Shown: one piece after another, positions 1 through 58,305 of the stretch
Numbering within the stretch: the stretch's first letter is position 1
Layout: each line of letters opens with the position of its first letter
Origin: Thermoflexibacter ruber
GTDB taxonomy: Bacteria > Bacteroidota > Bacteroidia > Cytophagales > Thermoflexibacteraceae
Reading direction: 5' to 3'
Length of the DNA stretch: 64,000 nt
Assembly (NCBI RefSeq): GCF_900113045.1
Contig: NZ_FONY01000001.1
Coordinates: 1 to 64,000, forward strand
Notes under the pieces: model-generated
The model's input: the letters and a program-made list of their open reading frames with translations, nothing else
Database searches by the model: none
Told to the model about the DNA's origin: nothing
Made by a program: the position numbers and the translations under genes

Positions 1-247
1 GTGCCACACTCAACTTGCCTGTATAACCTTGATAATTATCTTGTAAATAGGCTTCCAAACCTACTTGCTCATATCGCTGCCGATAGTTCCTCACTGTTCC
101 TTCACTGATGCCTAAACTGGCACTAATCACCTCCATACTTTGACCCAAATGAAGCATTAAAAGCACAGTTATCTTCTTGTACGCTCTGGCATAGCGTTCA
201 TTGTGTTGTAACTCCCTTAGTAAATCATAGTCTGCTTGTGATAACAT
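1..247 (-). CDS. IS630-type transposase, N-terminal part (cut by window edge)
   Basis: The reading frame starts with ATG at 247 and runs leftwards off the window, giving 82 codons. The product begins MLSQADYDLLRELQ and contains a helix-turn-helix (VISASLGISEGTVRNYRQRY, about residues 39-58) followed by GLEAYLQDNYQGYTGKLS. This layout, an HTH that ends in a 'GLE.LL.DNY.G' linker, is typical of the N-terminal DNA-binding part of IS630/Tc1-mariner-like transposases. The DDE catalytic domain would lie outside the window. The gene is head-to-head with the Cas13b remnant that starts about 80 bp to the right, in the place where the missing N-terminal half of Cas13b should be. Family assignment comes from the HTH part only, so another HTH transposase family is possible. 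Confidence 0.72.
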   Translation of the reverse strand, partial: MLSQADYDLLRELQHNERYARAYKKITVLLMLHLGQSMEVISASLGISEGTVRNYRQRYEQVGLEAYLQDNYQGYTGKLSVA

Positions 248-326
248 TTTTACTAATTTGATTACCAAATATTGTACTTTTTTCGTAATTTTCCTAATCC
301 AAATTTCAAAACCTTTTACTTTTTAG
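1..326. mobile_element. Probable right end of an IS630-like insertion element
   Basis: This region holds the 5' part of a transposase gene plus about 80 bp of untranslated A+T-rich sequence. Cas13b-like reading starts immediately to the right of it. The exact element boundary cannot be set from this sequence. The last in-frame stop before the Cas13b-like frame is TAG at 324-326, and a 9-bp inverted repeat straddles this point. IS630 elements duplicate a TA dinucleotide on insertion and several TA steps occur here. The boundary at 326 is an inference. Confidence 0.4.
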
Positions 327-350
327 TATAAACCAATTATCACTAAAAAG
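319..350. repeat. 9-bp perfect inverted repeat at the IS/Cas13b junction
   Basis: CTTTTTAGT at 319-327 is the exact reverse complement of ACTAAAAAG at 342-350, with a 14-nt spacer. It sits at the junction between the transposase leader and the Cas13b-like frame. It could be part of an element end, a small terminator-like hairpin, or chance in A+T-rich DNA. Confidence 0.4.
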
Positions 351-2879
351 GACGCAAGTGGTCTGGCTACCAAAATAAAAAATAATGCACCTGATGCGAT
401 TATTAGTACGCACGAATTACCCGACTTATTTTTGTATCAATACCTATACAAGAAAGGACATATCAGCACCTCAGCAGAGGCTTTTATCAGTGATTACATT
501 ACTTTATATAAAAATTTTCTTACTAATTTGCCTATGCTTACGCCTCTTAATTTTGAACCATTGAGGAAAAAATACATCAAGAAAAAAGAGGAAAATATGA
601 GCCACCCCCCAGGCTATCCATATTCCAAAGAGGAATTTAAAGATTTAAAAGAGCGTCATGAAAAGTTACAAAAATTTTTAGATACCGATTACAAAGGCTT
701 GAAAGTTTGGCACTTGCCAGATGACATCAAAGAATATTTGATACAAGTAAGCACGCCAAGCTATAGGCAATTGGCTTTGATAAAAATAGATGAAATCAAA
801 GCACAAACCAAACAACTCATCAAAGATTGCAAGGCATTGGAAAAGAAAAAGCCTGAGGAGCGCACCCTAAGAGCGGGACACATTGCCCAAATTTTGGCAA
901 GGGACATGGTTTATCTGCGAAAACATCACCAACATATCAAAGATGGAAAAGTACACCATAGCAAACTCAATGATGAGGAGTACAACCGCTTGCAAAACCT
1001 GCTTGCCTACTTTCAAAAAGATGACATTCAGGCACACTTAGACCAATACAGGCTTTTAGAACTGCACCCTTTTCTCAAAGATGTAAAACTGGAAAATAGC
1101 AAAAACCTGTACGAATATTACAAAAAATACTTGGAGAAAAGGAAAGAGTATTTTATTGGTGTCTATGATAGCATAGACCTTTTTGCCCCTATTTTCAAAA
1201 AGGCAGAACAATACCTTAAAAAATTTCATGGAGTGAATAAAGATGAAAAAGACAAAAAAGTAAAAAAGTCTTTACTGGAATTAAAAAAAGCACTTTTTAA
1301 TTTTGATAGACAAGTCATTAAAATTTTTCTAAAAAACTATATCACAGATTGGAAAGGTATAAACTTGGGCAACTGTAAAAATGCAGAGGATTTTTGTTTT
1401 CATGTTTTTAGCATAGAAAAAGAATTTAAAGACAAAACATTCTTTAACATAGATGAACTTCAAAACAAGTTAGGGTATTTATTTGACTTCAAATATCAAG
1501 AAAATCAACCTGAAAAGTTAGATAAAAACTATGCTCAGATTCCTATTGCCTTGCCATCCAGCCTATTCAAAGATGCGATTATAGAAGGCATAGAAAAAGC
1601 AATGCAGAAAGAAGGCAAAAAACTCACCTTTGGCAAAGATGAAGAAGGAAATGAGAAAAGAACTGTAGTTTATGCACTTAGGGAATGGTTAGAAAATGAT
1701 ACACAGGTTTTCTATACTCACAATAGGCATTACAAAATGCCTGAAAAAAGCAAAGAAATATTTAGCAAAGAGCAAATCAAAAGAATTGAATGTCAAGTTA
1801 TTAGTTTAGAAAATCGTAAAGAATTGTATCACTATAAAGAACTTTCTCTTTACGAATGGATAGACAAACCAGAGAAATACGATAAACTAAAAGAAATTGC
1901 TCAAAAAGATGCTTTAAAGAAATTCCGCAGTTACCTTTTATCTACTGAAAAAGTCTTGCGCTTAGAACAGCACAAAGACAGAGTTTTGTGGCTTCTTGCC
2001 AAAGATTTATCTGAAAATCGTACACAAGGCACAAACTTAGATTTTAAAAACTTCAAACTAAAAGACTTAGAGAAGTTTTTAGATACGCCTATTAAAATGG
2101 AGGTAAAAGTGAATTATATAGTTGATAAAGAAGATATTGCAGTAAATAATGCCATTTCAGGAAAACCTTGTACTTCTGAAAAACAACTTATTGAAGTTGG
2201 TGCTGTTTCTGAAACACTAAAAATCAAGGACTACGGCGACCTTCGCCGCTTTGCCAAAGACCGCCGCTTGCCTAATCTTTTTCGCTATTTTTATGATGTA
2301 AAGAGCAAAGGAGAGGCTTTGTCAAAAACTGAATTAGAAAAGGCTATTACACTTTTAGAGGTTCGTAATCTTATTCAAAGAAATGAAGACGGAAGCAAAA
2401 TTTTCAAAGACAAGATTACTGTTTTAGAAAAAGCAATGGAGTTAGAGCAACTACTCCATGAAAAATATGGACAACCTGATACAGATTTTGAAAATACGCG
2501 CTTGGGAAAATATTGGAAACAAGAGCAACCTAAGGACTCTCATATTTCTCATAATACCTACATAAAATTCTTGCAAGACAAGACGTTAGGTATAGACCTC
2601 AATATCAACCCAATAGTAGGAATGGACGGCGCACAACATTTGAATAACGACAAGGAATTGGCAAAGTCAAAACGAACGCACCCTGAACAAACTTTGGAGG
2701 CTTGTTTGATTATCCTCCTCCGCAACAAACTCATTCACAACGAAGTCCCTTACACTACCTTCTTGCAAAGCAAAATGCAGGCAGACTTTACCCCTGAGCA
2801 GGTAGTACGCCAAATCATTGATGAGAGTATGCGTATCTATGACCAACTTATTGCAGAGGTAAAAAAACAAACCGCATAG
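327..2879 (+). pseudogene. cas13b: Cas13b (type VI-B CRISPR RNA-guided RNase), N-terminally truncated remnant
   Basis: The open frame runs from the TAG at 324-326 to a stop at 2877-2879. Its first possible start is TTG at 432 (815 aa); the first in-frame ATG is at 594. It matches Cas13b along its length: ISTHELPDL just before 432, an IAQILARDMVYLR segment near residue 155, NLYEYYKKYLEKRKEY near 220, LPSSLF.DAI near 376, KDRRLPNLF near 618, and a C-terminal HEPN motif R764-NKLI-H769 followed by NEVP (compare RNAFSHN.YP in known Cas13b). Full Cas13b proteins have about 1,100-1,200 residues and two HEPN domains, which together form the RNase site. Here roughly the first 400 residues, with HEPN1, are absent and a transposase lies in their place. 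No CRISPR array and no csx27 or csx28 follows. The retained frame is intact, so the break may be recent. Cas13b identity is strong; loss of function is inferred. Confidence 0.85.
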
Positions 2880-2898
2880 TTTTTACAAATTTTTTTGC

Positions 2899-2906
2899 TA
2901 ACTTTG
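2899..2906 (+). promoter_or_regulatory. Bacteroidota -7 element (TAACTTTG) before the GWxTD gene
   Basis: TAACTTTG matches the TAnnTTTG -7 consensus and lies 35 bp before the ATG at 2942, implying a leader of about 29 nt. No good -33 TTTG is seen at the right distance, so this is a partial match. It suggests that the gene has its own transcription start after the Cas13b remnant. Confidence 0.45.
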
Positions 2907-2941
2907 GCTGGCAAAGCATCAGCAACAAATCTTATTCAATC

Positions 2942-4150
2942 ATGAAGATACGTAAGCATTTCTACTTCCTTGTCTATTTCGCTCTTTCCCTTTTGGGCTA
3001 TGGTTGTGTCAGCACCTCTCCCACCGCTACCAACACTCCACAAGGCAGAATGGGCATCAACTGCAATGCTAAGGTAGTGAACAAAGGCACACTCTTAGAA
3101 ATCTTCTTGGAGTTGGACATAGAGCGGCTCTACCAAGCCGCTACCCTCCAAGGCATCAAGCTAAGCTACCTCATCAAACCTACTTTTGAGAGTTCACAAG
3201 TCTTAAAGTCAGATTCTATCCCCACTGACAATCAGTTCGTACAGAAAAGGGGCAATAGTTTTTACCTTAGCTTTGGCATCATCAAGCCCCAAGTCATGCC
3301 TTCGGTCATGATTCTGAGGGTACAAGATTTAGAAGCTAATCAACTCCTTATCAAGGAAATAGGTTTAGGTAAAGCTGACAATCCGCTGCCTTTCGTACTG
3401 AGCAAAACACAAGGGCAAGTGTTTGACAATTTCGTCAGCAACCAAGATACCCTACGTTTTGAAGGGGCGGACGTGCCTGTCTATGTCTATCGCATCAAGC
3501 AAAATTTCCTCCCTGCCCTCCCCCCTATGCAGCTCAACAACCTGAACGTAAACCCCAAGGTCAGTGTGGATTCTTTTTTTACTATTCCTACCAACGAAAA
3601 TTTCGTACTGAAAAGCAAGGGCTTGTACTTTGCCCAAGCAGATACCACCAGCAACAAAGGGCTGGGATTCAACGTCATGGATGCCTCCTACCCCAAGTTT
3701 ACCAAAATAGAAGACCTCATCGCCTCTTTGGTCTATATTTCTACCCAAGAGGAAATCAATCAACTCAACCGCACCACTAACAAGAAAAGTGCCTTAGACC
3801 AGTACTGGCTCCAACTCGGTGGAAACGAAGAGAATGCCAAACGCATGATACGGCTTTATTATCAGCGTGTAGAATACGCCAACCGCGCCTTTACTACTTA
3901 CAAAGAGGGTTGGAAAACTGATATGGGCATGATTTACATAGCCTTCGGGGCGCCGCAAATCACCACCAAAGGCAACCAACAACTTTGGACGTACCAACTC
4001 AACAATGGCAATGTCAAAGTTACCTTTGCCTTCGTACAAAAGTCCAATCAGTTCAGCGAGAAGCATTACGAACTTATCCGCAAGTCAGAGTACGGAGCGA
4101 TTTGGTACGAAACCATTGAAAAATGGAGGCTGGGTCTGGTAGCAAACTAA
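2942..4150 (+). CDS. GWxTD domain lipoprotein
   Basis: The 402-aa product opens with a lipoprotein signal (hydrophobic stretch, then LLGYGC with the lipidated Cys at 22), so it should be anchored in an envelope membrane facing the periplasm. The defining motif is G323-W-K-T-D327 followed by MGMIYIAFGAP, the hallmark of the GWxTD domain, which is found mainly in Bacteroidota and some other bacteria and has no settled biochemical function. The N-terminal 200 residues look like a beta-rich domain. The stop at 4150 is 11 bp before the likely start of the ABC ATPase gene, so the two are probably co-transcribed. The family call is firm; the role is unknown. Confidence 0.85.
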   Translation: MKIRKHFYFLVYFALSLLGYGCVSTSPTATNTPQGRMGINCNAKVVNKGTLLEIFLELDIERLYQAATLQGIKLSYLIKPTFESSQVLKSDSIPTDNQFVQKRGNSFYLSFGIIKPQVMPSVMILRVQDLEANQLLIKEIGLGKADNPLPFVLSKTQGQVFDNFVSNQDTLRFEGADVPVYVYRIKQNFLPALPPMQLNNLNVNPKVSVDSFFTIPTNENFVLKSKGLYFAQADTTSNKGLGFNVMDASYPKFTKIEDLIASLVYISTQEEINQLNRTTNKKSALDQYWLQLGGNEENAKRMIRLYYQRVEYANRAFTTYKEGWKTDMGMIYIAFGAPQITTKGNQQLWTYQLNNGNVKVTFAFVQKSNQFSEKHYELIRKSEYGAIWYETIEKWRLGLVAN

Positions 4151-4161
4151 ATACATTACTC

Positions 4162-4947
4162 ATGCACTTACTCCATACTTCGGGCTTGTCGGTAGGTTAT
4201 CGTACAAAAAAGCAAGAAAAAATCCTGCTTGATGACCTGCATTTGCACTTGGAGCAAGGCAAGCTCACAGCCCTGCTTGGCATCAACGGCACGGGAAAGT
4301 CCACCTTGCTGCGTACCTTAGCGGGTCTTCAGCCTTCCCTTAGTGGGCAAGTGTGCTTAGAAGGGAAAGACCTCGCCAAAATACCCCGAAGTGAAGTAGC
4401 ACAAAAAATTAGCCTCGTGCTAACTGATAAGCCTGAAATCAACCTGATGAAAGTCAAAGATTTAGTGAGTCTTGGTCGCTACCCTTACTTAGGCTGGGCG
4501 GGGAAACTGACCACTTTTGACAAGGAAAAAATAGACCAAGCTATGCAAATTACTCAAATTACCACTTGGGCGGAGCAGAAAGTCTATCAACTCAGCGATG
4601 GACAGCAACAAAAAGTATGGATAGCCAGAGCCTTAGCTCAGAATACCCCCTTGCTCTTTTTAGATGAGCCTACCGCCCATTTAGATGTTATCAATCGCTT
4701 AGAAATTTTGTTGCTATTAAAAAAAATCGCAGAACAGCAGCAGAAAGCTATACTTATTGCTACTCACGACCTTTCCGAAGTATTGCAAGTTGCTCATGAG
4801 ATTTGGCTCATCAACAAAGAAAAAAAACTGATTTCCGCCAACGCACTAAGCCTCATCGAGGATAATCACATAGAAAAAAACTTTACCAATGCAAGCATTT
4901 ATTTTGATAGGGAAAACAAAAGATTTAAGTTAAAGACTGATGCTTAA
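4162..4947 (+). CDS. ABC transporter ATP-binding protein, FecE/BtuD-like
   Basis: This is a 261-aa ATPase of the iron-siderophore/heme/cobalamin importer type. Visible parts are Walker A GINGTGKST (from residue 40), the signature LSDGQQQ (from 144), Walker B LLFLDEP with D168 and E169, the D-loop AHLD, and a switch His in ATHD. The signature is LSDGQ rather than LSGGQ, a variant common in this subfamily. The frame is open back to 4123, but ATG 4162 is preferred because the earlier start would lie inside the preceding gene. No permease or binding-protein gene is adjacent, so the partner must be encoded elsewhere. The substrate cannot be decided from the sequence. It ends 13 bp before a convergent gene. 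Confidence 0.85.
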   Translation: MHLLHTSGLSVGYRTKKQEKILLDDLHLHLEQGKLTALLGINGTGKSTLLRTLAGLQPSLSGQVCLEGKDLAKIPRSEVAQKISLVLTDKPEINLMKVKDLVSLGRYPYLGWAGKLTTFDKEKIDQAMQITQITTWAEQKVYQLSDGQQQKVWIARALAQNTPLLFLDEPTAHLDVINRLEILLLLKKIAEQQQKAILIATHDLSEVLQVAHEIWLINKEKKLISANALSLIEDNHIEKNFTNASIYFDRENKRFKLKTDA

Positions 4948-4960
4948 TTACATCAGCTAC

Positions 4961-6250
4961 TCATCGTATCAGTTTGAGATTGACTAACTCTACCCCTAAG
5001 TGGCTCTTTTTCGTAATTACTACTTCATACTTGCCCACTTTTAATCTATCCCCTACGTTAGGTAATTTCCCTAACTTATACAAAATCAGACCTGATACCG
5101 TATCATAATGCTTATTTTCAGGAAGTGGCTGGGGAAGTAACCTATTTACATCTACAATGGAGGCTACGGCATTTACCGTAAATTCTTTGTCATTGACCTT
5201 ATCAATAATGATTACCTTCTCCTCATCATACTCATCGTAAATTTCTCCAAAAACCTCCTCGATAATATCTTCCAGAGAAATCAGCCCCACAGTCCTCCCA
5301 AACTCGTCTGTAACAATCGCCAGATGGATTTTCTTTTTTTGAAACTCTCTGATTAAATCTTTAATCCGCTTAGACTCTGGTACATAATAAACGGGTCGCA
5401 TGATATTTTCCAAGTTCAAATCTTGCTGGCTATTAGCAAACGCCAACAGGTCTTTGGAATAGACAATACCTATGATTTTGTCTATGCTATCTCTGTATAC
5501 GGGCATTCTGGAGTAGCCTTCTTCAATCACTGTTTCAAGCACTTTTTCTTTTTCCCAGTTGATGTCTATGCCTGAAATTTTCAGTCGGGGAATCATTACT
5601 TGCTTAGCAAATCGGTTATCAAACTCAAATACCTTCTCTATTAAGTGCTGTTCGTTGGTATTGATAGTTCCGCTTCGCACACTCTCCGCAATCACGATTC
5701 TCAGTTCTTCCTCTGTATGCGCGGCATCATTGCCCGCCAAAGGCTTAATTCCAAACATCCTAATCACAAGGTTGGCTACTCCATTGAGTAAAAAGATAAC
5801 AGGATAGAAAATTGTATAAAAAGCACGTAGAGGCAGTGCCACAAAGAGCGTAGTTGCCAAAGGATAGCGAATAGAAATAGACTTAGGGGCAAGTACCCCA
5901 AAAACCACTAACAAAAAAGTCATAATCACAAAAGAAATCTCGACAGCGTGTCCTGTAATCTCGGCAGGGGGGTCGTACTCCAGCCATTCACAAATCTGCA
6001 AAATGACTTCCAAGGTAACTATATCGCCAATATAGCCAATCGCAATCATCACCATAGTAATCGCCAAGCGAGTAGCCGCCAAGTAAGCATCTAATCGTTG
6101 GAGAATATGTCGGCAAGTTTGCTTAATGATACCTTCGGACAATTTGAGTTCTAACTGGGAGGAGCGTAGCTTGACTATGGCAAACTCCGCCGCCACAAAA
6201 AACCCATTAAGGATTACTAAAAAAATAGTTAGTAAAATATCACCTGCCAT
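4961..6250 (-). CDS. Hemolysin-family / CNNM-CorC type membrane protein (DUF21-CBS-CorC_HlyC)
   Basis: The 429-aa product has three parts. A DUF21 membrane domain (about residues 1-190, several hydrophobic segments, start GDILLTIFLVILNGFFVAAEFA) is followed by a CBS-domain pair (about 210-335, with IPRLKISGI and RMPVYRDSIDKIIGIV) and a CorC_HlyC C-terminal domain (about 345-429). Proteins of this family are linked to divalent cation (Mg2+/Co2+) efflux or homeostasis. The name hemolysin is historical. GldE of gliding Bacteroidota belongs to the same superfamily and cannot be excluded, but no gld genes are nearby. Length and start fit the family. It is divergent from infB across a 260-bp gap. 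Confidence 0.85.
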   Translation of the reverse strand: MAGDILLTIFLVILNGFFVAAEFAIVKLRSSQLELKLSEGIIKQTCRHILQRLDAYLAATRLAITMVMIAIGYIGDIVTLEVILQICEWLEYDPPAEITGHAVEISFVIMTFLLVVFGVLAPKSISIRYPLATTLFVALPLRAFYTIFYPVIFLLNGVANLVIRMFGIKPLAGNDAAHTEEELRIVIAESVRSGTINTNEQHLIEKVFEFDNRFAKQVMIPRLKISGIDINWEKEKVLETVIEEGYSRMPVYRDSIDKIIGIVYSKDLLAFANSQQDLNLENIMRPVYYVPESKRIKDLIREFQKKKIHLAIVTDEFGRTVGLISLEDIIEEVFGEIYDEYDEEKVIIIDKVNDKEFTVNAVASIVDVNRLLPQPLPENKHYDTVSGLILYKLGKLPNVGDRLKVGKYEVVITKKSHLGVELVNLKLIR

Positions 6251-31875: not shown

Positions 31876-34002
31876 ATGCGTTTATTGCTACTTGCTTTAT
31901 TTTTGTCCTACTCGTCGTTTAGCCTTGCCCAGCAAACACAAAACATTGTTGATAGCCTTATCCAAATCCTACCTAACGTTCAGGATACCAATAAAGTCAA
32001 TGTGCTAAATAATCTCAGCTACGCCATTGCCAATATTAATCCTGAACAATCCAGAGAATATGCTACCCAAGCTATCGCCTTAGCGACACAGATTAACTAT
32101 CAGCACGGTTACGCAAGCGGTATAGACATTATGGGAACTTACTACGAAAGACTCGGGGACTATGCCAAAGCCTTAGAGTACAAATTTCAAGCATTGCGTA
32201 TTCATGAGCAAATCAATGACATAGGAGGCATCGCTAAAAGTCTGAACAATATTGGGGTGATTTATTATCGGCAGAAAAACTTTGAACGCTCCTTAGAATA
32301 CTATGAAAAAGCCTTAGCCATCATGCAAAAGCAGAATAAACCTTATGCCGTTGCGGTGTATTTACTCAATATTGGGGAGATATATCAGGAAAAAGGAGAT
32401 TATGCCAAAGCTATAGAATACCAAGAAAAATCTATGGAAATCAGCAAGAAAATAGCCAATATGGAAGACTGTATTGCGTTTTCTTTGGGAATCATTGGGA
32501 AGTGCTATGCCGCACAAGGCAAATACACCAAAGCCTTGGAAAATATGCGGCAAACTATGCAGATTTTTGAAAGTATTAATGACAAAATTAGCTTGGCAGA
32601 ATACCTTGTAGAAAGTGGCAATGTATATATTGCTATGAAAAACTATACAGAAGCATCTAAAAACTTTCAAAGGGCTATCCAAATTAGCACAGACATTGGC
32701 GATAGCAACTGGCTCAAATACGCACATTTAGGCTTAGCGAAAACTTATGCCGCTCAGAAAAATTTTGAAAAAGCCTACCTACACCAAGTCCAATACGATT
32801 CTCTCAAAGACATAGTTTTCAATGAAAACAATGCTAAACGCATAGAGCAAATGCAAACCCTTTACGAATCAGAAAAGAAACAAGCAGAAATAGAGATGCT
32901 CAAAAAAGACAAGCTCATCAAAGAAGAAGAAAATAGAATATCAAGACTGGTGAATTATTCTTTTTTAGGCACATTTCTATTCATCAGTGCTTTGACTTTT
33001 GCCCTCTATCGGAATAATCGCAATAAGCAAAAAGCCAACCAGTTACTTACTCATAAAAACAATGAAATTAATCTTAAAAATGCAGAGTTAGAACAACAAA
33101 AAGAGGAAATTCTTACCCAAAGGGATTTGCTGGAAAATCAAAATGTAGTGCTTCAAACCCAACAAAAAGAATTACAAGAAAGAAATGCAGAAATAGAAAA
33201 GCAACGCAACGACATTACCGCTTCTATCTCTTACGCCAAGCGTATCCAGACCGCTATACTACCCGAGATGAACAAGGTAAAGCAGTTCTTGCCTTCCTCT
33301 TTTGTCCTCTATAAGCCCAGAGATATTGTCAGCGGCGATTTTTACTACTTTGCCACTCTCCAAGAGGCGGAGGCACTTCACCATGACGGCACACGCCAAT
33401 TAAGTGAAAAAATTATCTTGGCAGCTGTGGACTGCACAGGTCACGGAGTGCCAGGCGCATTTATGAGCATGATAGGTGATGCCATGCTCAATCAAATCGT
33501 GAATATCCAAAGAATTAGCTCGCCAGATAGGATTCTCAACGAACTCCATAAAGGCATCAGGCTTATGCTCAAGCAACAAGAAGGAGAAAATCGCGACGGC
33601 ATGGATATTTCTATTTGTACCATAGATTTGCAGGCTAAGGTAATGGAGTTTGCTGGGGCGAGAAATGCCATGTATCTCATTCAAAACCAAGAATTAAAAG
33701 AAATTAAAGCAGATAGATTTTCTATTGGGGGGTATCAGCAAGAAAAGGAACGTGTTTTCAATAAAAGCATCATCAAATTAGATGTACCTACTACTTTTTA
33801 TCTCTCCACAGACGGATACAAAGACCAGTTTGGGAGCGAGGAGGGAAAAAAGTTTTCTGCACGCCGTTTCAAAGAGCTACTTTTGCAGATTCATCATTTA
33901 GATTCCCAAGAGCAACACAGAATCCTTGAAAGCACCTTCGAGGAATGGAAAGGAAGGGAGCTACAGATAGATGATGTATTGGTGATAGGAGTATCTATTT
34001 GA
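31876..34002 (+). CDS. TPR–SpoIIE phosphatase, signal-anchored
   Basis: The 708-aa protein has a signal peptide (LLLLALFLSYSSFSLAQQ), about six tetratricopeptide repeats (residues 50-310, for example YAKALEYKFQALRIHEQI), a transmembrane helix at about 357-377, a coiled coil (385-455) and a cytoplasmic SpoIIE phosphatase domain (465-708). Catalytic motifs include SGDFYY, DCTGHGVPGAFMS from D519, and STDGYKDQFG. The TPRs should lie outside the inner membrane and pass a signal through the helix to the phosphatase. The target is unknown. Another protein of the same layout is encoded at 56371. Confidence 0.9.
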   Translation: MRLLLLALFLSYSSFSLAQQTQNIVDSLIQILPNVQDTNKVNVLNNLSYAIANINPEQSREYATQAIALATQINYQHGYASGIDIMGTYYERLGDYAKALEYKFQALRIHEQINDIGGIAKSLNNIGVIYYRQKNFERSLEYYEKALAIMQKQNKPYAVAVYLLNIGEIYQEKGDYAKAIEYQEKSMEISKKIANMEDCIAFSLGIIGKCYAAQGKYTKALENMRQTMQIFESINDKISLAEYLVESGNVYIAMKNYTEASKNFQRAIQISTDIGDSNWLKYAHLGLAKTYAAQKNFEKAYLHQVQYDSLKDIVFNENNAKRIEQMQTLYESEKKQAEIEMLKKDKLIKEEENRISRLVNYSFLGTFLFISALTFALYRNNRNKQKANQLLTHKNNEINLKNAELEQQKEEILTQRDLLENQNVVLQTQQKELQERNAEIEKQRNDITASISYAKRIQTAILPEMNKVKQFLPSSFVLYKPRDIVSGDFYYFATLQEAEALHHDGTRQLSEKIILAAVDCTGHGVPGAFMSMIGDAMLNQIVNIQRISSPDRILNELHKGIRLMLKQQEGENRDGMDISICTIDLQAKVMEFAGARNAMYLIQNQELKEIKADRFSIGGYQQEKERVFNKSIIKLDVPTTFYLSTDGYKDQFGSEEGKKFSARRFKELLLQIHHLDSQEQHRILESTFEEWKGRELQIDDVLVIGVSI

Positions 34003-56370: not shown

Positions 56371-58305
56371 ATGCAAAGGTTCGTTATCATCATTTTATTG
56401 CTTTTATGTCATCTATCAGCAAAGCCTCAGAATAAAGCGGTGATAGATAGCTTATCCGACTTACTCAAGTCTGCAAAAGATACCAGCAAAGTACTTGTTT
56501 TGAACCAATTAGCATGGAATTACAGAAACTCAGACCTCTCTCAAGCGGTTGCCTATGGAGAGCAATCTATAGCACTTGCTCAGTCAATTAAGTACCACAG
56601 AGGCTTGGCAGAGGCTTACAACATGCTCGGAGTAGTACAGCGCAATATCGGTAATTATTCTAAGGCTACTGACTTTTACTTCAAGGCTTTACAAGTAGCT
56701 GAGCAGTACAACATCACACAGCAAATTTCGTATTCTAACCTCAATCTGGGGGATATTTTCAAATACCAAAAAAATTATGAGCAGGCTGTTCTTTACATAA
56801 ACAAAGCCATTCAATCCTTTGAAAATATCAAAGACCAGAGAGGAATCGGTTATGGATACATTCGCTTAGGCGAGGTATATCAGGAGCAGGGTTTGTACCA
56901 AGAAGCCCTCAAAGCCTATGAAAAATCCTTAGAGGTACGAATAAGCCTAAAAGATAAGTCCGCTATAGAGTCCACTACCAATCGCTTAGGTAACTTGTAT
57001 GAATTGATGAATGATTATCCACAGGCTATCAAATACTTGACCCAATCTTTGGAAATAGGTTCAGAAATCAATGACCTGAAAAGCATTGCAGGTACGCAAG
57101 CAGACTTAAGCAGATTGTATTTCAAACAAGGGGACGATGACAAAGCGATAGAGTATGCAGAACAAAGCCTTGAATTAGGGCAAAAATTGGATACACGTGA
57201 AAGTATCAAAAGAGCCAGTCAAGTATTGGCAGAAATTTATGCTAAAAAAGAAAACTACAAAAAAGCCTATTATTACCAAAGCATACTGATGGAGATGAAG
57301 GACTCTCTCTTTAATCAGGAAAGTTTTATTAGAATCAATAACTTACAAAAAAACTATGAAACCCAACGAAAGCAAGCAGAAATAGACTTACTCAACAAAG
57401 ACAAACAAATACAAAATCTAATTTTGAATATACTAATAGGCGGGCTACTGTTGTTTTTATTTCTTGTGTTTGCTTTGTATAGAATTAACCGACATCGCAA
57501 AAATGTAAATCAAATTCTCAACAACCAAAATAAAATCATAGAAAAACGCAATGAGGACATTACAGCAAGCATTAACTACGCAAAAAGAATCCAAGATGCT
57601 TACCTGCCCTCTTCGGAGCGAATAGCCAAATATTTACCAGAGCATTTTATTTTTTTCAAACCCAGAGATATAGTAAGTGGGGATTTTTATTGGTTTGCTG
57701 AGGTAGAAAAGAAAATAGTTTTAGCAGCAGTGGATTGCACAGGGCATGGGGTGCCGGGAGCATTCATGTCTTTGATAGGCAATAATTTGCTCAATCAAAT
57801 CGTGCTGAACATGGGCGTAACTATGCCAGAGGTGATTCTCTCAGCCATGAATGCAGGGGTAAATGAAGTACTCCAACAAAAGCAAACACAAAACAGAGAT
57901 AGCATGGACGCAGCCCTCTGTGTAATAGACCTGAAAAACAAAGTATTAGAATTTGCTGGGGCAAAATCTCCCCTGTTATACATACAGAATAATCAACTGT
58001 ATTTTATCAAAGGAAATAAAAGCACAGTAGGCGACATAGACCGAGAAGAGGTAAAAATTTTTGTCAAACATACGATTGATATTTCCATTCCTACTACATT
58101 TTATATTTTTTCTGACGGCTTCCCTGACCAGTTTGGAGGTAGCGAAAATAAAAAGTTTCTTACTAAAAACTTGAAAGAACTACTTTTCAGTATTCACCAA
58201 CGCCCAATGAAGGAACAGGAAATACTCGTGCAGGCTACTTTCAGAGATTGGATAGGCGACTACTCTCAAATAGATGATGTTACAGTTATTGGAGTAAAAG
58301 TCTAA
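56371..58305 (+). CDS. TPR–SpoIIE phosphatase, signal-anchored
   Basis: The 644-aa protein repeats the layout of the protein encoded at 31876: signal peptide (FVIIILLLLCHLSAKPQ), about six TPRs (45-310), a transmembrane helix near 350-372, a short coiled coil (375-400), and a SpoIIE Ser/Thr phosphatase domain (405-644). The catalytic region has SGDFYW, DCTGHGVPGAFMS from D455, and FSDGFPDQFGG. The coiled coil is about 50 residues shorter than in the paralogue. It should sense something outside the inner membrane and dephosphorylate an unknown cytoplasmic partner. Confidence 0.9.
   Translation: MQRFVIIILLLLCHLSAKPQNKAVIDSLSDLLKSAKDTSKVLVLNQLAWNYRNSDLSQAVAYGEQSIALAQSIKYHRGLAEAYNMLGVVQRNIGNYSKATDFYFKALQVAEQYNITQQISYSNLNLGDIFKYQKNYEQAVLYINKAIQSFENIKDQRGIGYGYIRLGEVYQEQGLYQEALKAYEKSLEVRISLKDKSAIESTTNRLGNLYELMNDYPQAIKYLTQSLEIGSEINDLKSIAGTQADLSRLYFKQGDDDKAIEYAEQSLELGQKLDTRESIKRASQVLAEIYAKKENYKKAYYYQSILMEMKDSLFNQESFIRINNLQKNYETQRKQAEIDLLNKDKQIQNLILNILIGGLLLFLFLVFALYRINRHRKNVNQILNNQNKIIEKRNEDITASINYAKRIQDAYLPSSERIAKYLPEHFIFFKPRDIVSGDFYWFAEVEKKIVLAAVDCTGHGVPGAFMSLIGNNLLNQIVLNMGVTMPEVILSAMNAGVNEVLQQKQTQNRDSMDAALCVIDLKNKVLEFAGAKSPLLYIQNNQLYFIKGNKSTVGDIDREEVKIFVKHTIDISIPTTFYIFSDGFPDQFGGSENKKFLTKNLKELLFSIHQRPMKEQEILVQATFRDWIGDYSQIDDVTVIGVKV

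Follow-up and report, generated by a model that had tools for sequence, protein, structure and literature searches.

A cas13b gene of Thermoflexibacter ruber, very probably broken by an IS630-family insertion and divided between two contig ends

We are highly confident that the cas13b gene of Thermoflexibacter ruber was originally complete and was broken by a simple insertion of an IS630-family element, the two halves of the gene now being seen on either side of an assembly gap. The stretch of DNA analysed (the window, 64,000 nucleotides) has base 1 of contig C75 as its first position, in an assembly of 123 contigs, and the absence of HEPN1 from the window is an effect of this contig boundary. 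The gene shows the sequence match to Cas13b and two R-x4-H motifs, one near each end, and it lacks a single continuous frame; judged from its sequence, the locus is a disrupted gene and not a working Cas13b member. One of the two options offered in an earlier note on this DNA, a gene freshly broken by a transposon, is borne out, the gene being interrupted by an IS630-like element on whose far side the other half is found.

The C-terminal half is located at window positions 327-2879 (+), where the ORF scan gave an 850-codon open frame without an internal stop; the 2.5 kb of stop-free frame described earlier is thus real, since 200 mononucleotide shuffles of window 1-4500 produced no open frame longer than 168 codons. 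Its assignment to Cas13b was also correct: NF038190 (NCBIfam, an NCBI equivalog model with a curated cut-off of 150 bits) matches it with 234.6 bits (E 2e-69, profile 436-1065), the PADLOC Cas13b model matches it with 192.5 bits, and PDB entry 6DTD (PbuCas13b) is matched at 616-726, so the proposed family comparison places the protein inside Cas13b, by HMM and above the cut-off. Codon 327-329 consists of IS sequence and target duplication, and the Cas13b portion begins at 330. This disrupted C-terminal part of cas13b (330..2879, +, 849 codons, assigned by NF038190, PADLOC and identity to the Cas13b of the same-genus genome G123) spans the end of the lid/linker region, the helical domains and HEPN2. 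The C-terminal HEPN motif that had been read in the frame was recovered by the motif scan as RNKLIH (R-x4-H; 2721..2738, +, C-half residue 798), and the longer string RNKLIHNEVP is common to the C half and the G123 Cas13b. Starting at the earliest in-frame ATG, at 534, would cost 68 residues; upstream of that ATG the frame offers only TTG start codons, at 432 and 528, and a pattern scan for a Bacteroidota-type promoter (TTTG...TAnnTTTG) between the IS end and the C-half starts found none. The downstream gene (2942..4150, +) codes for a GWxTD-domain lipoprotein-like product (TIGR04514, 90.6 bits; no PADLOC match). The window also holds two 93-nt segments (33409-33501 and 57712-57804), 24 kb apart and 76% identical, which encode similar protein stretches and belong to paralogues, possibly SpoIIE-type phosphatases.

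When the T. ruber genome was searched with NF038190, exactly two Cas13b loci were obtained, one on C75 covering profile 426-1065 and one at the end of contig C52 (366-1874, minus, profile 3-429, 296 bits). The frame on C52 (C52:351-1889, minus) encodes the N half of the protein, 513 aa matching profile 3-427 with 298 bits against the cut-off of 150; it starts with MTHEPTQKALFGAFLN, has the HEPN1 motif RNFYSH intact at residue 111 according to the motif scan, and matches 6DTD at 37-148 and 224-476. The Cas13b profile stops at 427-429 on the N half and restarts at 426-436 on the C half, neither half contains a stop or a frameshift, and the N-half frame runs straight into the opposite IS end. Seeking the N-terminal half beyond the element, as the earlier note had proposed, was the decisive check, and its presence on C52 indicates a simple disruption. 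The statement in the earlier note that the N-terminal part is missing holds for the C75 frame and fails for the gene, whose HEPN1 half lies at C52:351-1889 (minus); what was taken for about 400 absent residues amounts to 513 residues located on C52.

At the insertion point the cas13b flanks are ...GACTTATTA before the IS and TAAACCAATT... after it. When a single TA is counted, the frames fuse as AGA CTT ATT followed by AAA CCA ATT (R L I, then K P I I T), and residue 513 of the N half is followed directly, without loss, by the residue that opens the C half. The TA target-site duplication is at window positions 329..330, and its second copy adjoins the opposite IS end on C52. Across the genome, GTATA was constant at all 14 different junctions of the IS end present in the window and at 15/15 of the opposite end while the remaining bases varied, a pattern that we read from the bases as an IS630 element whose own end is TA and next to which a duplicated TA lies. 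Two other placements, an IS boundary at 326 and a 4-bp TATA duplication, were rejected, as they either introduce a stop or depart from the Cas13b frame; only the TA at 329..330 restores it.

In the window the IS630-like element is represented by one end, cut by the contig edge (1..328, -), which carries the 89 first transposase codons (2-268, minus). This N-terminal fragment reads leftward off the contig and corresponds to the helix-turn-helix part (HTH_29/HTH_23, NF033545 positions 2-53), and the IS end on the C52 side encodes the C-terminal DDE part of the transposase (ICDNARYY...NLIERLW). The IS terminus is TACT...AGTA. A 331-base stretch covering this IS end recurs at the ends of 12 further contigs, with 100% identity in as much of it as each contig retains, and no match to the IS end was found in plasmids. 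Only partial transposase pieces were assembled, and against the IS630 family cut-off of 100 the N piece reaches 25-28 bits and the C piece 79 bits. We counted about 13-15 copies of the element, nearly all 99-100% identical and every one broken at contig ends; these copies are a recent burst, which explains many of the breaks in the assembly.

We propose that a type VI-B effector gene of about 1,362 codons was hit by the IS630-family element at a TA dinucleotide, the element inserting in the orientation opposite to cas13b. As the IS is multi-copy and near-identical, the assembly would have broken inside it, and the halves of the gene would thereby have been placed at the start of C75, that is, of the window, and at the start of C52. 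The insertion appears to be recent, because the IS copies are near-identical and neither half has decayed. The RNase site of Cas13b is formed by both HEPN motifs together, and the insertion would abolish RNA-guided RNA cleavage because each HEPN motif now lies in a frame of its own and no good start is available to the C half. The adjacency of C52 and C75 through one IS copy is inferred, as none of the reads or contigs crosses the element. Recombination between identical copies could have since separated the halves, in which case the gene would be broken regardless, and part of the population could still carry an intact cas13b.

Matches to the Cas13b family were present in 7 of the 390 genomes of the order, above the cut-off in 4, the T. 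ruber genome included. Outside the genus, G103 (a 1,170-codon frame) and G093 (1,317 codons) have full-length Cas13b, and the search for equally truncated copies, which the earlier note had suggested, found none among the 390 genomes. In G123 the contig that carries cas13b is 5.3 kb long and ends within the gene; the encoded Cas13b is 44% identical to the C half over residues 17-840 and 49% identical to the N half over residues 305-497, and its frame is uninterrupted over the insertion point. We considered G123 as a truncated Cas13b and rejected it, since the gene ends at the contig end; the rest of this gene (its N half) was sought on the other contigs of G123 with no match. A single-protein contig search with the C half gave no relative, and the relatives described here were obtained by whole-genome searches.

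The other option of the earlier note was a retained single-HEPN protein derived from Cas13b, which would bind RNA or pair with another HEPN protein. It draws on the long stop-free frame, but the recency of the insertion fully accounts for an intact frame; moreover, the truncation point is the IS junction with its TA duplication, the rest of the gene is elsewhere in the genome, both halves of the split gene are intact frames, the same-genus G123 is continuous over the site, and no equally truncated copy was found among the 390 genomes of the order, so we regard this reading as extremely improbable. We also give almost no credence to an assembly artefact, under which the organism would carry an unbroken gene to which IS ends had been wrongly joined. 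Repeated IS at contig ends are indeed places prone to mis-joins; however, each half independently abuts the proper IS end, opposite to that of the other half, and both do so at one and the same position, with the TA duplication and an exact frame fit, and a target-site duplication is not expected from mis-assembly.

A naturally split Cas13b, with both halves expressed and coming together again on the crRNA as an enzyme that works or binds crRNA, would fit the intact N and C frames; the C half would then be transcribed from an internal promoter or one carried by the IS, and translated from an alternative start. Engineered split PspCas13b reassembles spontaneously at N550/C551 (PMC10803366), and split RfxCas13d fragments are able to reassemble with guide RNA (PMC10881482). 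Because split PspCas13b self-assembles at some sites, we keep a natural two-piece enzyme at a very small probability, not at zero. Against it, the C half has no ATG before 534, only the TTG codons at 432 and 528, and no Bacteroidota-type promoter pattern; some engineered sites, such as N351/C352, fail to self-assemble (PMC10803366), and the split was seen in no relative. If true, an IS-made two-piece Cas13b would be the natural counterpart of engineered split-Cas13. The reading that we prefer is that of a gene disrupted by the IS630-family element.

The description of the gene as an orphan with no CRISPR array arose because a contig edge bounds the window. Repeat searches found no CRISPR-like repeats beside the C half or in the window, to which extent the claim stands, and no CRISPR-like array on C75 or on C52 outside a run of N. 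This run, either an assembly gap or a withheld stretch, comprises 2,698 bases (C52:2057-4754) and lies 168 bp from the cas13b start codon on its upstream side, so for that side of the gene the absence of an array is not assertable. A terminator-like inverted repeat lies between the cas13b start and the N run, and rpoB lies beyond. In G093 the CRISPR array begins a similar distance upstream of cas13b, likewise past a terminator-like hairpin; G103 carries its array 3' of cas13b. Because the G093 array occupies the corresponding place, we presume by analogy that the array of the T. ruber cas13b probably sits within the N run of C52. The visible neighbours of cas13b are the GWxTD lipoprotein gene and an ABC ATPase gene downstream and rpoB upstream; csx27/csx28, which had been suggested as a check, are absent among them, and one could lie within the 2,698 N. 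A csx27 or csx28 neighbour is not present in all type VI-B loci.

As a separate observation, rpoB (C52:5076-8951, upstream of cas13b) and rpoC (C77:86983-91320, alone) are not adjacent in this genome. The rpoB and rpoC matches were on different contigs in 13/13 genomes of the family, and of 80 further rpoB loci, almost all in Bacteroidota, 71 have rpoC within 500 nt, so an operon that is nearly universal seems to have been split throughout this family. The rpoB gene is at most 83% identical to named records, which gives only a rough placement of the taxon, in Bacteroidota close to Cyclobacteriaceae and Fulvivirga.

Elsewhere in the T. ruber genome, a cas9-cas1 locus (C120:1-5019) contains a cas9-like frame at 1612-5019 (minus), assigned from its N-terminal sequence and not by HMM, and cas1 at 541-1608 (minus); a further small frame nearer the start of C120 could be cas2. 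No repeats were found in the first 10 kb of C120, and an array may lie past the contig edge. The VI-B array of Flavobacterium columnare acquires spacers with the II-C Cas1 (PMC8092290), and by analogy the C120 locus could have supplied spacer acquisition to the VI-B system of T. ruber.

An IS-disrupted Cas13b is ordinary, and the apparent novelty of the window is due to the contig edge. A false lead is thereby removed, since a mobile element together with a contig boundary explains the seeming single-HEPN Cas13b, and the lesson is that contig ends should be inspected before a truncated effector is called a new protein type. The locus contributes a Cas13b of Cytophagales type, with about 44% identity to the closest of the relatives compared, and would be a clear case of type VI-B effector loss through IS insertion while the cas9-cas1 locus remains open-framed.

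Compared with known systems, the gene resembles Cas13b (NF038190; PbuCas13b 6DTD, BzoCas13b 6AAY, PspCas13b 8WF8) in having both HEPN motifs and in that its halves jointly cover the whole profile, with the matched stretches in the same order; it differs in the absence of csx27/csx28 among the visible neighbours and, relative to PbuCas13b, in being interrupted by the IS just after the position equivalent to about residue 476. The element resembles the IS630 family (Tc1/mariner relatives) in its TA target duplication, its helix-turn-helix N-terminus and its C-terminal DDE part with DN and E motifs, and differs in that a whole copy was not assembled here, so that the match is below the family cut-off. 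With the II-C and VI-B systems of Flavobacterium columnare (PMC8092290), T. ruber shares a VI-B effector without its own cas1 and a separate cas9-cas1 locus in the genome, whereas in T. ruber the VI-B effector is broken.
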